Source: Chryseosolibacter histidinae
Lineage (GTDB): Bacteria; Bacteroidota; Bacteroidia; Cytophagales; Cyclobacteriaceae
Assembly (NCBI RefSeq): GCF_018598225.1
Contig: NZ_JAHESF010000046.1
Span: forward strand, 1-54,890
Reading direction: 5' to 3'
DNA: 54,890 nucleotides
Position 1 is the first letter of the stretch, and every line of letters starts with the position of its first letter. Below, one piece after another: positions 2,150 through 37,339 of the stretch. The notes beneath the pieces are model-generated. The model had not been told where the DNA came from and made no database searches. It worked only from the letters and a program-made list of their open reading frames with translations. Both the position numbers and the translations under genes were made by a program.

Positions 2150-3904
2150 TCAACGCATCGCTTCGATGCCACACACCAAATAAACCAACGGCGCATTCCA
2201 GTTAATGGCTACCTCATTACTTGCATAAGAGCAAACGTCGTCGATGTAGGCTTCATCGGGGATGGAGGATGGATATGCGCATTTGTCTTGCATGCCGGGG
2301 TTGGGGCCGCCTGCGAGAAGACCGGGCACCGGTGCTGTGACGCCATCAGCTTCTGAAGGGCGATGGTGTGGATGCATGGGTGTTTTGCTTCCGTGGCCCG
2401 TCACAAAAGAATATCCCGTGGCATTTCTGCCCAGCAGGTAATCGAGATTGGATAGGGCATGATCTGCATATCGCTTATCGCCGCTGATGCGGTATGCCTG
2501 GATCAGGAGGATGCCCTGGTTCGCCGCTACGGCATTGCTGCCCCAGACAAAATCTTTTGGCGTGGAGCCCATCACCGTGTGATAGGGATGTGAACCGACA
2601 TCTTTGATCATGTCGCCGGCAAATTGCACGATGCGCTGTTTCATTTCTGCAACAACGGGCTGTGCCTCCGCAGGCAGTTGTTTTTCGTGGCGGATCAAGG
2701 TATAGTATCCGAGCAGGCGCACCTGGTTCCAGGTGGGCACCAGCAGCGCTCCCGGTGAGAGACCGATCGCATTCCTGTATTGCGCATCTTTTGTAGTGGC
2801 GTAGAGCTCCGCGGCAGCCCAGCTGAACTCGTCAGAAAAATCACGGTCACCATAGGCGCCGGTGGTCACATCCGGATCGAAGGCTTCGTTCATTTTGTTC
2901 TGGTCGTACTTTACGTCGGGATTTTTTTGCGCCCACTTCCAGGCATGCTGCGCGGCCCTGAGGCACGAGTCGGCCAGCCCCGGAAACTGACGTTCAAATT
3001 TTCGCAACACGCGTACGGCCTGTGCGCTGACAGCAGCAAGGTTCAAAGCGGCGGCGGTTCCCTTCTGCACCACATACCTTGGCGTGGTAGCCTGATCAGG
3101 CATCACCATCGGGTCGAACCTGGCATTGGTGCATTTGTGATAAACACCTCCGTCGGCGGGATCCTGCATCGTGAGCATCCAGCGCAGGTTCCACAAAATT
3201 TCATCGAGCACGTCGGGAACATCGTTGCCGCTTTCAGGGATCGCGAGCTTCAGCGTATCGAAATATGCCGGAAAATCTTCATAGGCTGAAAGCAAAGTAC
3301 CTGTTGTAATACCGCTGTTGACGATGTACTTGTTGTAATCACCTGCATCGATCCAGCCCCGTGGACTCGATATCACCGTGCCTGCGGGTCTTTTCTCCGT
3401 GGCTGCCGAAGGATGCACGATCACCTCGCGATGGGTTGGACCCGAAGCCCTGCTCCACTGGCCGGCATACTGCGGTGTTAAAGCCATGGAGAAGCGCTGA
3501 TAATAAAAGGCCTTGATGGACGCTTTGGCAACCCCTTCATGAATTTTTTCGCGGATCTCGAACGGGTAAGAATAGCCGAGGCCGGGAATCACCACTACGA
3601 ACCGGCCCGGTGTTTTAAAAGCTGAAAAATCGGCGAGCCTGGTTGGCTTCGGAGAAAACGCAGAGCGTTTCACATCGCTCAGCTTACCGCTGAAATATTT
3701 TTGTTTCAGGTCCGGTGATGCAATGTAGAACTCGCTGTAGGCCTCCCCCGCCACCACCGCTATCTTTTGCGCCGGCGGGTAAAAACCGATCTGGTTGGTC
3801 CGAATATTCTCGGATAATTTTTCCTGGGCTTCGGAAGCACAGGAGATCATAAACACCATGAGCAGCAACACTACTCCCCGGTGACTGCTGATGTGAAAAC
3901 GCAT
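2150..3904 (-). CDS. GH9 endoglucanase lipoprotein
   Basis: Glycoside hydrolase family 9 enzymes are inverting endo-beta-1,4-glucanases. The protein (about 584 residues from the chosen start) has a lipoprotein signal with lipid Cys near residue 22 (F-M-I-S-C), an N-terminal Ig-like domain (residues 30-115) and the (alpha/alpha)6 barrel. Active-site features are all present: D-A-G-D near 186-189 (catalytic base), the P-H-H-R histidine motif in GHGSKTPMHPHHRPS, and the C-terminal signature YIDDVCSYASNEVAINWNA with the acid Glu. The reading frame opens earlier at a TTG (3955), but the ATG at 3904 (or 3916) gives a normal signal peptide. It is the last gene of the SusC/D locus, separated from it by a hairpin at 3941-3976. 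It probably cuts the glucan backbone at the cell surface. Confidence 0.93.
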   Translation of the reverse strand: MRFHISSHRGVVLLLMVFMISCASEAQEKLSENIRTNQIGFYPPAQKIAVVAGEAYSEFYIASPDLKQKYFSGKLSDVKRSAFSPKPTRLADFSAFKTPGRFVVVIPGLGYSYPFEIREKIHEGVAKASIKAFYYQRFSMALTPQYAGQWSRASGPTHREVIVHPSAATEKRPAGTVISSPRGWIDAGDYNKYIVNSGITTGTLLSAYEDFPAYFDTLKLAIPESGNDVPDVLDEILWNLRWMLTMQDPADGGVYHKCTNARFDPMVMPDQATTPRYVVQKGTAAALNLAAVSAQAVRVLRKFERQFPGLADSCLRAAQHAWKWAQKNPDVKYDQNKMNEAFDPDVTTGAYGDRDFSDEFSWAAAELYATTKDAQYRNAIGLSPGALLVPTWNQVRLLGYYTLIRHEKQLPAEAQPVVAEMKQRIVQFAGDMIKDVGSHPYHTVMGSTPKDFVWGSNAVAANQGILLIQAYRISGDKRYADHALSNLDYLLGRNATGYSFVTGHGSKTPMHPHHRPSEADGVTAPVPGLLAGGPNPGMQDKCAYPSSIPDEAYIDDVCSYASNEVAINWNAPLVYLVCGIEAMR

Positions 3905-34016: not shown

Positions 34017-34119
34017 CACGGTTGAAACAAAGCACAATGATAAAAAAACGCCGGGGAATGAAGAAGGTTCCCGGTCCAACCTTACCGGCAATTACTGTGT
34101 CTAAAAGAAAATGCACGTT

Positions 34120-34389
34120 ATGAAAAACCTCCGTCACCTCTTTCTGTTCATGCTACTCTGCCTGTGCGGTTGTGATAACGAAGATGATAACCTCATGATA
34201 TGTGGCGTCGCCAAGGACAATTGTGACCTCGTTCCCGATCCCGGTCATTGCATGGCATACATGCCCAGATACTACTTCGACAAGACCGAGGGAAAATGTA
34301 AAGAATTCATCTGGGGCGGCTGTGGTGGCGTTGTACCTTTCAATACCATGGAAGAATGTCTGCAGTGCGAGCAGACCAAAAACAAATAG
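34120..34389 (+). CDS. Kunitz/BPTI-domain lipoprotein 1 (P1 Met)
   Basis: The 89-residue precursor has a lipoprotein signal with the lipid Cys at 18 (L-C-G-C), then an acidic linker (D-N-E-D-D) of the kind that can send Bacteroidota lipoproteins to the cell surface. Residues 35-83 match a Kunitz serine-protease-inhibitor domain. Cys spacing C35-x8-C44-x15-C60-x7-C68 equals that of BPTI; the last two intervals are shorter (x11, x2 instead of x12, x3). The hallmarks G-x-C-x-A, R-Y-Y-F-D, F-I-W-G-G-C and the late Phe are present. The P1 residue is Met45 with P1' Ala. There is one extra Cys (28). A second copy follows 27 bases later. Inhibition of an extracellular protease is the obvious role, but no target is known. 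Confidence 0.88.
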   Translation: MKNLRHLFLFMLLCLCGCDNEDDNLMICGVAKDNCDLVPDPGHCMAYMPRYYFDKTEGKCKEFIWGGCGGVVPFNTMEECLQCEQTKNK

Positions 34390-34416
34390 TCCAGGAATGT
34401 AAAAGAACCAAGACCT

Positions 34417-34698
34417 ATGAAAAAACTTCTCCCCTTCATGCTCTTCACTTTCCTCTTTCTATACAGCTGTGACGACAAAGAGGACCGCCTGTGCGGTTGC
34501 ATGCCTCCTCCAAAATCCAGGTGTGAGCTAACGCCTGACCCGGGTCCCTGCGACGCACATATCCCCAAATATTACTTTGACAAGACCGAAATGAAGTGTA
34601 AGGAGTTCATATGGGGCGGCTGCGAAGGCGTTGTGCCTTTTAATACCATGGAAGAATGCCTGCTATGTGAGCAGAAAGCAGCAACCCTGAAAAAGTAA
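34417..34698 (+). CDS. Kunitz/BPTI-domain lipoprotein 2 (P1 Asp)
   Basis: The protein is a tandem paralogue of the gene just upstream, 93 residues long. The lipoprotein signal ends L-Y-S-C with lipid Cys18, followed by D-D-K-E-D. The Kunitz domain (36-84) has Cys at 36, 45, 61, 69, 81 and 84 with the same spacing as copy 1. It keeps K-Y-Y-F-D, F-I-W-G-G-C and P-F-N-T-M-E-E-C. The reactive-site bond would be Asp46-Ala47, an unusual P1 for the family, and the P1' Ala is kept. Two additional Cys (26, 28) lie in the linker. Most DNA changes against copy 1 in the core are silent, while the segment before and around P1 has changed more. The genes are probably cotranscribed. Confidence 0.88.
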   Translation: MKKLLPFMLFTFLFLYSCDDKEDRLCGCMPPPKSRCELTPDPGPCDAHIPKYYFDKTEMKCKEFIWGGCEGVVPFNTMEECLLCEQKAATLKK

Positions 34699-34701
34699 CA
34701 A

Positions 34702-36030
34702 TCAGAAACTGTCTTCGAATTTTGCCGCACCATCCTGTGACGACAACGTTACTGCGTTGATGCTTCCCGTGCCCTGGAAACGGTAGACCAACCCTACGAT
34801 CTTTTTAGAGTCATGCACCTCGATCTCCTGCGCCAGCTCGTTATTGATGAGGATGCGGCCTTTTCCATTTTTCACTTCGCAGCGCACTTTCACCCATTGT
34901 GAAAGGTCGCATCCGAAAGCAGAGAGATCCGTTTTTTTACCATCGAATCCCTGATCATCCACGGCCAGGTACAGGTCTGAAACACAACCTTTGATGGATA
35001 ACGGAACGATGATGATACTGCCTTCGAGCAACAGAGAAATATGCACGAACTGGCAAACGCCGGAGCCTTCGTTATAATCGCTGCGCACCTCGGTCTCAAA
35101 AATAAAATTGTCGGACCTGATGTCTCCAAAATCCTTCACGTTGTAATAAGACAACGAGGGTGTCTCCGGCTGAAAAGAGATGTTGTTCTCTTTCATCCTG
35201 CTTACCGGTAAGCTGAGCATACCGGGTTTTCTGAAATCGGCATCCTTGAAATATACGGGCACGGGCTCTTTGTTGGCGAGGGCCATCCAGCCACCCGATG
35301 TGATCCACAGATTGTGCTCCTTCACCACCTCACCCGCTACCACGAGCTTGGCCTGGAAAAAACCTGGCGTATAATAAATGGAAGTATGCTGACGTCCATC
35401 GCGGGGCACCTGCGTTCGCCGGCGCTCATCCCACGACTGCTGGATAAAAACAGAATCGACTGGCGCAGCGGAAGCATCATAATCGAAGATCACGGAATTA
35501 GGCACACCTTCTGACACTACCTTCATGCTGCTGAACGCGTACTGCGCGGGGTGAATTTGCTTTTCAGGACCCTTGCGGAATCCGTAAAGAAAAATGAACA
35601 GGATACCACCGCAGAGCGCCGTGCCTACCAGTCCTGAGCGCCAGAGTCTTCTGGTCTTGGCGGTACTTTCCGAAGCAGCCTTGTCTTGCATGGTGTGCTC
35701 CGTGCCATTGATATGTCCGTGACCGTTCCCATTACCGGACACTGCCGGCTGGCTTTGCTTGAAGGTGCGCCAGTTCTCATAACCGGTGAACTGGGCCAGC
35801 GTATTCAGTGTGGTGATGGTGGGCTTGCTGTCGTACTTCACCTTGCCCCAGATCCGCTTCAGGGTGGCAACGCTGAGGTTCACGCCAGTAGCCTCCTGGA
35901 TCTTTTCACTGAGCACCTGGAAATCGTGGTTGGTCCATGATTCACTTCCTTCCCATCCCAGCTTTTCCTGGACCAGGTTCTTGCATTTATTCAGCAATAT
36001 TTCGTCGGCATCCATAAGCTTGTCAACCAT
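34702..36030 (-). CDS. Membrane-anchored HTH-like protein with extracytoplasmic beta-rich domain
   Basis: I know this architecture only as an uncharacterised Bacteroidota group. The 442 residues divide into a cytoplasmic N-terminus with an HTH-like segment (about 36-92: S-V-A-T-L-K-R-I-W-G-K-V, then T-L-N-T-L-A-Q-F-T-G-Y-E-N-W), a low-complexity Gly/His linker (98-112), one membrane span (131-150) and a large extracytoplasmic part (155-442). The latter looks like a PKD-like strand region followed by a concanavalin/LamG-type sandwich ending V-K-V-R-C-E-V-K-N-G-K-G-R-I-L-I-N. This could be a one-component transmembrane sensor. ATG 36030 is preceded by AAGGGAAACG. It is convergent with the Kunitz genes and divergent from the secreted LamG-like gene, a possible target. 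Confidence 0.75.
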   Translation of the reverse strand: MVDKLMDADEILLNKCKNLVQEKLGWEGSESWTNHDFQVLSEKIQEATGVNLSVATLKRIWGKVKYDSKPTITTLNTLAQFTGYENWRTFKQSQPAVSGNGNGHGHINGTEHTMQDKAASESTAKTRRLWRSGLVGTALCGGILFIFLYGFRKGPEKQIHPAQYAFSSMKVVSEGVPNSVIFDYDASAAPVDSVFIQQSWDERRRTQVPRDGRQHTSIYYTPGFFQAKLVVAGEVVKEHNLWITSGGWMALANKEPVPVYFKDADFRKPGMLSLPVSRMKENNISFQPETPSLSYYNVKDFGDIRSDNFIFETEVRSDYNEGSGVCQFVHISLLLEGSIIIVPLSIKGCVSDLYLAVDDQGFDGKKTDLSAFGCDLSQWVKVRCEVKNGKGRILINNELAQEIEVHDSKKIVGLVYRFQGTGSINAVTLSSQDGAAKFEDSF

Positions 36031-36247
36031 CGTTTCCCTTGTTTCTCCTTGAACAAAACATGTTCCGTTTTTGAACGGGTTTGTACACATCCCGGCAGCC
36101 CGCTTTCAGTATAATCGAATAAGATCGGCGGGGCGTTTTCTGTTACGAAAATAGCGGAAAAAAATGAGGAGTCAGAAGAAGGAGTAAGAAGTAAGGAGGC
36201 GGGGTAGGAATGAATAGAAGCATTGTAACATCAAAAAATAGATCATC

Positions 36248-37339
36248 ATGAAAAGGAACATCAGTATTATCATTTTTTTAGGAGTTGTACAGTCTGTTTG
36301 TGCGCAGACGGCTGTTCCGTTTACGTCGGAGCGCTGGAAGTTTGAGGCCGAAGACCATCGCGCGGAAACGCATTTGGGCAAGCCAGGTGTGCGGTTGAAG
36401 GGAGGACGGGCTACGCTGCCGGATGTGAGCTTCGAGAATGGCATCATCGAATATGATATCGCCTTTTCGCAGCAGCGGGGTTTTCTCGGTGTGAGCTTCC
36501 GCATGCAGGATAACAGGAACTATGAAGAATTCTATGTGCGTCCCCACCAGTCAGGCAACCCTGACGCCAACCAGTACACACCCGTATATAACGGCCTCGC
36601 GGCATGGCAGCTGTATTACGGTGAAGGTTACGGCGCCCCGGTACAATATGCTTTCGATGAATGGATCCATGTCAAGCTGATGATCTCCGGCCAGTACATG
36701 GAGGTTTATATCCGTGATATGGAGAAACCAGTGCTCTTCTCTGAATTAAAGAGACCGGTTAGCAAAGGATACCTCGGCATCACCAACAACGGTGAAGGCT
36801 ACTTTGCCAACTTCACCTATACCATTACAGATAACGTGCAGCTGCAGGGAACACCCAAACCGAAACAACCCGCCACACCGGGCACCGTTACGCGATGGGA
36901 GGTTTCTACACCAGTATCCGGAAAAGAAATGATGGCTGCCACCTCACTCAAACCAATTGAGAAAGGCTTATCATGGAAAACCGTGGAGTCTGAAAATACA
37001 GGCACTGTGAACCTGGCAAGTGTAGCCGAATGGTCTGAAGAGAACAACACCGTGCTCGCGAGGGTGGTTGTGAACGCCGAAAAAGACCAGCTCAAAAAAT
37101 TTGTCTTCGGTTTTTCAGAGAGTGCCCGTGTATACCTCAATGGCAACCTTCTGTACTCCGGAGAAGATGTTTACCGCTCACGCGATTACAGGTTCCTCGG
37201 CACAATAGGTTATTTCGATGCCCTCTACCTCAACCTGAAAAAAGGCCGCAACGAGATCACTATTGCCGTTACCGAAATTTTTGGTGGATGGGGAGTGAGG
37301 GGGAGGTTCGAAGAGGTGAGTGGCATCAGCTTCCCGTAA
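36248..37339 (+). CDS. Secreted LamG/DUF1080-like protein
   Basis: The 363-residue protein has a signal peptide (cleavage after V-C-A-Q). A concanavalin-type sandwich of about 180 residues follows (F-E-A-E-D-H-R-A-E, then Y-D-I-A-F-S-Q-Q-R-G-F-L-G-V-S-F-R, then W-I-H-V-K-L-M-I-S-G-Q-Y-M-E-V-Y), resembling DUF1080/3-keto-disaccharide hydrolase or LamG domains. The C-terminal half (about 215-363) resembles a beta-sandwich carbohydrate-binding module with V-Y-L-N-G-N-L-L-Y-S-G. No catalytic residues are recognisable, so binding of a glycan is the safer guess. It stands divergent from the membrane-anchored HTH gene. A hairpin repeat follows its stop codon. Confidence 0.65.
   Translation: MKRNISIIIFLGVVQSVCAQTAVPFTSERWKFEAEDHRAETHLGKPGVRLKGGRATLPDVSFENGIIEYDIAFSQQRGFLGVSFRMQDNRNYEEFYVRPHQSGNPDANQYTPVYNGLAAWQLYYGEGYGAPVQYAFDEWIHVKLMISGQYMEVYIRDMEKPVLFSELKRPVSKGYLGITNNGEGYFANFTYTITDNVQLQGTPKPKQPATPGTVTRWEVSTPVSGKEMMAATSLKPIEKGLSWKTVESENTGTVNLASVAEWSEENNTVLARVVVNAEKDQLKKFVFGFSESARVYLNGNLLYSGEDVYRSRDYRFLGTIGYFDALYLNLKKGRNEITIAVTEIFGGWGVRGRFEEVSGISFP

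Follow-up and report, generated by a model that had tools for sequence, protein, structure and literature searches.

A tandem pair of predicted Kunitz/BPTI-domain lipoproteins in Chryseosolibacter histidinae and their scattered bacterial relatives

Two short genes that lie next to each other on the forward strand of a 54,890-nucleotide contig of Chryseosolibacter histidinae (NZ_JAHESF010000046.1, analysed over its whole length and called the window here) each encode a lipoprotein-like product with a single Kunitz/BPTI domain and, as a preliminary description of this DNA had it, they are adjacent, the distance between them being 27 bases. Gene 1 (34120..34389) specifies 89 amino acids from the ATG at 34120, with an in-frame ATG further 5′ at 34111 as an alternative start that would give 92; gene 2 (34417..34698) specifies 93, and both assignments come from the sequence and the PF00014 profile. 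The gap between them (34390..34416, forward strand) is without a terminator-like site, so co-transcription of the two is likely, and judged by position the pair would be its own transcription unit. Promoter and terminator scans gave no excess over shuffled sequence. Within the domains, over 50 aligned codons, the copies differ with pS 0.73, which is saturated, and pN 0.12; both genes are under purifying selection and so maintained.

The layout is common to both copies: a signal peptide with a lipobox-like end (...GC or ...SC) is followed by acidic residues, a short linker and the one Kunitz domain. The putative signal peptide and lipid-bearing cysteine of copy 1, C18, are encoded by 34120..34173 and end in LCGC before DNEDD (the lipobox was found by eye and by script), and those of copy 2, again with C18, by 34417..34470, ending in LYSC before DDKED (read from the sequence). 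The domains, delimited by PF00014, phmmer and AlphaFold with Foldseek, extend from C35 to C83 in copy 1 (34222..34368) and from C36 to C84 in copy 2 (34522..34668), with the same cysteine spacings of x8, x15, x7, x11 and x2. Alignment to Kunitz domains puts the P1 residue at Met45 in copy 1 (34252..34254), with P1′ Ala46 after it, and at Asp46 in copy 2 (34552..34554), with P1′ Ala47 after it.

Both genes encode Kunitz/BPTI-domain proteins, with the fold being a predicted one. PF00014 matches gene 1 at 49.1 bits (E 6.4e-13) and gene 2 at 50.1 bits (E 3.3e-13) where the cut-off is 21, and an NCBIfam scan of the pair gave matches only far below cut-off. With phmmer, 111 distinct PDB chain sequences were found for copy 1 and 110 for copy 2 at E <= 0.01, and the best 60 rows for each copy are Kunitz-domain proteins by name; the high-ranking ones include SmCI, boophilin and TFPI. 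The AlphaFold model of the mature part of copy 1 has a mean pLDDT of 79.6 and a pTM of 0.61, the domain being at about 81-92 in blocks of ten residues, and that of the whole of copy 2 has a mean pLDDT of 77.7 and a pTM of 0.58, with 92-97 for residues 41-90. Foldseek matches both models to solved Kunitz structures with a probability of 1.00 and a target-normalised TM of up to 0.81, and the best 50 rows per model were all recognised as Kunitz entries. In sequence, the six cysteines are in Kunitz order with C14 beside P1, and the G12, P1′ Ala, G36 and G37 of a canonical loop scaffold are present in both copies. The preliminary description had listed the x8, x15 and x7 intervals, Y-Y-F-D, F-x-W-G-G-C (FIWGGC in the proteins), the P1′ Ala and the late Phe as BPTI-like, all of which are found in both proteins, and the profile search and structure prediction that it had proposed as checks both gave a Kunitz answer, with scores far above cut-off and two BPTI-like models.

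With BPTI, boophilin, TFPI and SmCI, all of them PF00014 members and Kunitz/BPTI inhibitors of MEROPS family I2, the pair shares the six-cysteine framework, its first three spacings, G12, the P1′ Ala, F33, GGC, the late Phe and the predicted fold. The bacterial proteins differ from the BPTI type in having a lipoprotein signal, VVPF before the late Phe, extra cysteines and frequently an acidic P1. In the window proteins the spacing is 11 from C38 to C51 and 2 from C51 to C55, against 12 and 3 in BPTI, and in the PDB alignments a one-residue gap is needed relative to the Kunitz entries at C38-C51.

Kunitz inhibitors are textbook animal proteins and the best PDB matches by phmmer are animal ones, which would suit a eukaryotic contaminant, or genes acquired very recently from an animal, as the source of the pair. 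The genes on both sides are nevertheless of bacterial type: the upstream neighbour, on the opposite strand, is a NUDIX gene by Pfam, farther away are genes for a LuxR-type response regulator, a DUF3817 protein, a periplasmic binding protein and an M28 peptidase, and five of the seven neighbours scanned have a Pfam match. Also counting against a recent animal source are the uninterrupted reading frames with lipoboxes, the existence of 101 confirmed bacterial relatives and, in 21 of the 22 unbroken GGC-type loci from plain PF00014 searches, P-F together with a spacing of 11 between C38 and C51 (it is 10 in the other). Contamination is practically excluded, it and a chance match being rejected on the PF00014 scores, the relatives and the neighbours, and a very recent animal origin is given next to no credence. 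The immediate downstream neighbour (34702-36090, reverse strand, 462 amino acids) and the frame at 36248-37339 (forward strand, 363 amino acids) have no Pfam match at E 0.001.

The genome of the strain has no PF00014 matches other than these two. Plain PF00014 searches, with its own genome counted in each, were positive for 8 of 59 relatives, for 24 of 390 genomes of the order and for 6 of 395 in a sample of the phylum, at most 16 candidates having been scored per genome in the order and phylum searches. An alignment of 16 relatives (A1, 18 rows in all, of which 11, trimmed, make up a second alignment, A2) was positive for 16 of 196 genomes of the family, own included, and found no match in two other genomes of the same genus. 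None of 14 named control genomes had a PF00014 match, and it is on these controls and a pattern-based scan of genome contigs that rarity outside the Bacteroidota rests. That scan is the source of the 101 confirmed relatives; by label, the best 80 of them comprise 66 Bacteroidota, 9 Marinimicrobia/Neomarinimicrobiota, 2 Myxococcota and 1 each of Alcanivorax, Deltaproteobacteria and Epsilonproteobacteria. Many of these 80 are metagenome-assembled genomes (MAGs), and the Bacteroidota among them include Maribacter, Allomuricauda, Saprospiraceae, Hymenobacter, Spirosoma, Fibrisoma and Runella. Viral contigs gave 10 pattern matches and no confirmed relative, and phage records and plasmids gave no confirmed relative either; an origin of the pair from a mobile element was rejected on that ground. 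The bacterial family is thus real but scattered, and its presence patchy. The survey of homologues in Cytophagales called for in the preliminary description accordingly exists, and the accompanying remark that Kunitz domains are rare in bacteria holds for their frequency but needs amending, as there is a true, if scattered, bacterial family. Bacterial PF00014 members are already present in sequence databases.

Plain PF00014 searches yielded 31 loci (L001-L027 and L108-L111), 22 of which are of the GGC type, like the window pair, and 7 of a type with SGC, the other two (L009 and L026) being without a full domain. All 22 intact GGC-type loci have P-F or P-Y, and the one with a C38-C51 spacing of 10 in place of 11 is L023; the SGC type has 10 in its seven loci, and the 12 of the BPTI type is in none of the 29 full domains from these searches. 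VPF and GG are part of the patterns that retrieved the relatives from genome contigs, so that set is unusable as evidence for the signature, and, as the extraction pattern requires G or A at position 37, conservation at all these places is partly built in. With that qualification for G36, which is kept in nearly all GGC-type domains, the loop scaffold is close to universal, G12 being present in 103 of 103 distinct GGC-type domains and the P1′ Ala in 97 of 103. The SGC type is a second, divergent Kunitz-like lipoprotein (L005, L006, L007, L027, L110 and L111, around 1390-1660, and L008, 190-486). Its members are likewise short lipoproteins with a PF00014 match, at 24-33 bits, and have a C-x-C tail, but, unlike the window pair, they have Ser for G36, do not keep G12 (by eye) and have the shorter spacing, so that the canonical loop is changed or lost.

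Most relatives are short lipoprotein-like frames and in some the domain sits in a larger protein. A Saprospiraceae MAG has six Kunitz domains in one protein (L046:5572-6705, forward strand), with K, E, K, E, K and R at P1, and a Lewinella MAG has three tandem Kunitz lipoprotein genes (L097, about 2855-3777, forward strand) with Glu, Arg and Leu; by script, the latter is the only one of the 80 listed genome-contig loci with more than one Kunitz frame. In L034, L036, L058, L075 and L109 the domain is C-terminal in frames of 177-189 amino acids whose first part has cysteines of its own, L058 being the same in sequence as L109 over the part of L109 compared; the N-terminal part of L036, the one scanned, had no Pfam match. 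In seven Flavobacteriales proteins of 249-379 amino acids (L049, L064, L069, L082, L086, L090 and L102) the domain is instead near the N-terminus and is followed by a long part that looks similar among them by eye; in L049, the member scanned, that part had no Pfam match. A Kunitz lipoprotein gene in a relative of the same taxonomic family (L009, about 1444-1658) is split over two frames, by decay or by sequencing error.

Many relatives have a cysteine between the lipid cysteine and the domain, often in C-x-x-D-C, together with a C-x-C tail. With a strict rule for the lipid cysteine, under which 70 of 101 domains were scored, 27 dropped and 4 left as ambiguous, a C-terminal extra cysteine is present in 26 of 29 lipoproteins with an N-terminal one and in 12 of 41 without (p 5e-7); cruder rules gave counts of 36/20/11/25 with p 0.003 and, for another, p 0.08. 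The strict set retains some errors (L040 and L059 are seemingly misassigned and the tail of L005 is misread) and its rows are related by descent. Seven of the dropped rows look like usable lipoproteins (L025, L031, L057, L071, L094, L107 and one L097 gene), and by eye six of the seven fit the pattern. This co-occurrence suggests a fourth disulfide linking the N-terminal stalk to the C-terminus in many relatives. L018 is without both extra cysteines, and the window copies are true exceptions: there is one N-terminal extra cysteine in copy 1 (C28) and two in copy 2 (C26 and C28), and neither has one in its C-terminal tail. In copy 1, C28 could be unpaired or could form a bond with another protein.

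The P1 residues of the family are very diverse, with E 20, K 18, F 11, R 11, N 10, L 10, D 6, M 5, Y 5 and Q 3 in 99 distinct domains of spacing 11. The acidic class, 26 of the 99, is the most surprising feature. In animal Kunitz domains an acidic P1 is unusual. After reduction of 103 domains to 88 at 85% identity P1 is acidic in 22 and basic in 28. P1 entropy, 3.12 bits, is the second highest of 46 positions, after position 6 with 3.56 bits. For the eight positions taken as side-chain contacts of BPTI-trypsin complexes (11, 13, 15, 17, 18, 19, 34 and 39) the average is 2.29 bits, against 1.17 at the other non-cysteine positions, and 324 of 100,000 random eight-position sets reach that mean, a figure that is no clean probability since the rows are related. 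High variability is likewise seen at non-contact positions 6, 8, 25, 26 and 28. Once the set is widened to all 15 loop positions, invariant glycines included, the contrast is gone (1.49 versus 1.35 bits).

The two window copies, sisters with a local support of 0.81 in a FastTree tree of 103 domains over 46 residues, differ at 9 of 46 positions (6, 8, 13, 15, 17, 18, 20, 28 and 39). Five of the eight contact positions are among these versus four of the other 38 (Fisher p 0.004; p 0.13 with the 15-position set), and pN between the copies is 0.38 at contact positions versus 0.07 elsewhere. A P1 Met is a plausible fit to a serine protease pocket and a P1 Asp is unusual, and with the enrichment of differences at the eight contact positions the pairing of Met with Asp lends weight to the suggestion in the preliminary description that the two have different targets.

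We infer lipidation, surface location, inhibition, targets and benefit alike, and it is on balance probable that the pair are surface-anchored canonical serine-protease inhibitors whose targets have diverged. Each prolipoprotein would be exported, gain a lipid on Cys18 and travel to the outer membrane, in all likelihood to its outer face. The acidic residues past the lipid cysteine, C-DNEDD in copy 1 and C-DDKED in copy 2, suggest surface exposure; they are similar, and not identical, to the export motifs quoted for Bacteroidota, K-(D/E)2, Q-A-(D/E)2 and S(D/E)3 (PMC6222051). Across the family the motif is far from strict: of 70 lipoproteins scored, 29 have none or one acidic residue among the six that follow the lipid cysteine. 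The mature domain would be locked by three disulfides, by homology C35-C83, C44-C68 and C60-C80 in copy 1, and the loop around C44, P1 and Ala would fit the active site of a serine protease as a substrate does, without release. An old tandem duplication would have given the two copies, and P3, P1, P2′, P3′ and position 39 would have diverged while the scaffold was kept, from which it is proposed that the copies cover different proteases: chymotrypsin-, elastase- or subtilisin-like enzymes for copy 1 with its P1 Met, and something else for copy 2 with its P1 Asp, perhaps enzymes cleaving after acidic residues. What the cell would most likely gain is a surface shielded against proteases, whether these come from competitors, predators or the surroundings. 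In favor of inhibition, PDB relatives are mostly protease inhibitors, the scaffold of the loop is kept in the GGC type, three of the five Kunitz domains of an Acinetobacter protein are inhibitory in vitro (PMC11511053), and the multi-copy cases L097 and L046 also mix P1 residues. Counting against it, Asp and Glu are poor P1 residues for enzymes of the trypsin, chymotrypsin and elastase kinds, which may leave copy 2 without a target among these.

Among animal Kunitz domains there are blockers of channels and of receptors, and the window proteins could instead be non-inhibitory modules of the same fold, binding or structural lipoproteins whose loop holds a partner other than a protease. The acidic quarter or so of the P1 residues would suit such modules, as would the relatives that carry the domain within a larger protein and the presence of a vasopressin-receptor antagonist and a channel blocker among the Foldseek matches. 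The near-universal G12, P1′ Ala and G36 of the GGC type, even if partly built in by the patterns, and the high variation at P1 and several adjoining contact positions are what makes a non-inhibitory role unlikely. Gram-positive bacteria are known to have serine proteases specific for Glu (PMC5508998), so targets of the kind proposed for copy 2 exist, with no link to this strain.

The enzymes restrained could also be the cell's own exported serine proteases in place of foreign ones, and the genome does have 7 subtilisin-family matches, of which two lie within open frames of 2127 and 2653 amino acids, and 6 trypsin-fold matches. The latter look HtrA/DegP-like, with NSGG motifs, a typing made by eye, and Kunitz domains are not known to inhibit enzymes of that type; with the patchiness of the family in the order, 24 of 390 genomes, and with the metallo-type M28 enzyme as the only peptidase among the seven scanned neighbours, self-protection appears quite improbable. 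Wider gene context gives no lead to a foreign or an internal target. When 685 non-Kunitz frames of the 80 listed loci were all compared with one another, clade-wise synteny was the only outcome, in the form of a block of neighbours conserved in 6 Neomarinimicrobiota loci and of three clusters, each spanning 13 loci with 12 common to all, whose genes were taken for miaB, an LVIVD lipoprotein gene and topoisomerase I; there was no conserved partner gene pointing to a target and no protease recognised by eye among the 25 larger clusters listed. The LVIVD-repeat lipoprotein gene shares a locus with the Kunitz gene in 13 of the 80, and in L070 (4614-5900), the locus for which adjacency and Pfam assignment were determined, it is just upstream of it.

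A literature search over titles and the beginnings of abstracts, thin for subscription journals, found no description of a Bacteroidota Kunitz lipoprotein family among the papers listed. Tests of bacterial Kunitz domains were found in one paper, on the five-domain protein F6W77 of Acinetobacter baumannii, three of whose domains act in vitro as inhibitors of the intrinsic coagulation pathway, two of them clearly and one weakly, with P1 Arg being held responsible for the inhibition of coagulation proteases (PMC11511053). Compared by that description, F6W77 and the window pair are both bacterial and of Kunitz type, but F6W77 is secreted, has five domains and, by the paper's account, is not a lipoprotein; its authors remark that few bacterial Kunitz domains are known and suggest transfer from animals (PMC11511053).

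A bolder proposition, and at present a doubtful one, is that an old bacterial Kunitz branch, in Bacteroidota and a few other phyla, consists of anchored inhibitors, often with a fourth N-to-C disulfide, that its large Asp/Glu-P1 class acts against proteases cutting at acidic residues, and that tandem sets are complementary in protease warfare. If there is such a broad, lipid-anchored branch with its own signature and a variable P1, which surface serine proteases these bacteria face becomes a testable question, as does whether the Kunitz fold predates animals or has passed from one kingdom to another, and domains with acidic P1 residues would naturally supply inhibitors for Glu/Asp-specific proteases.
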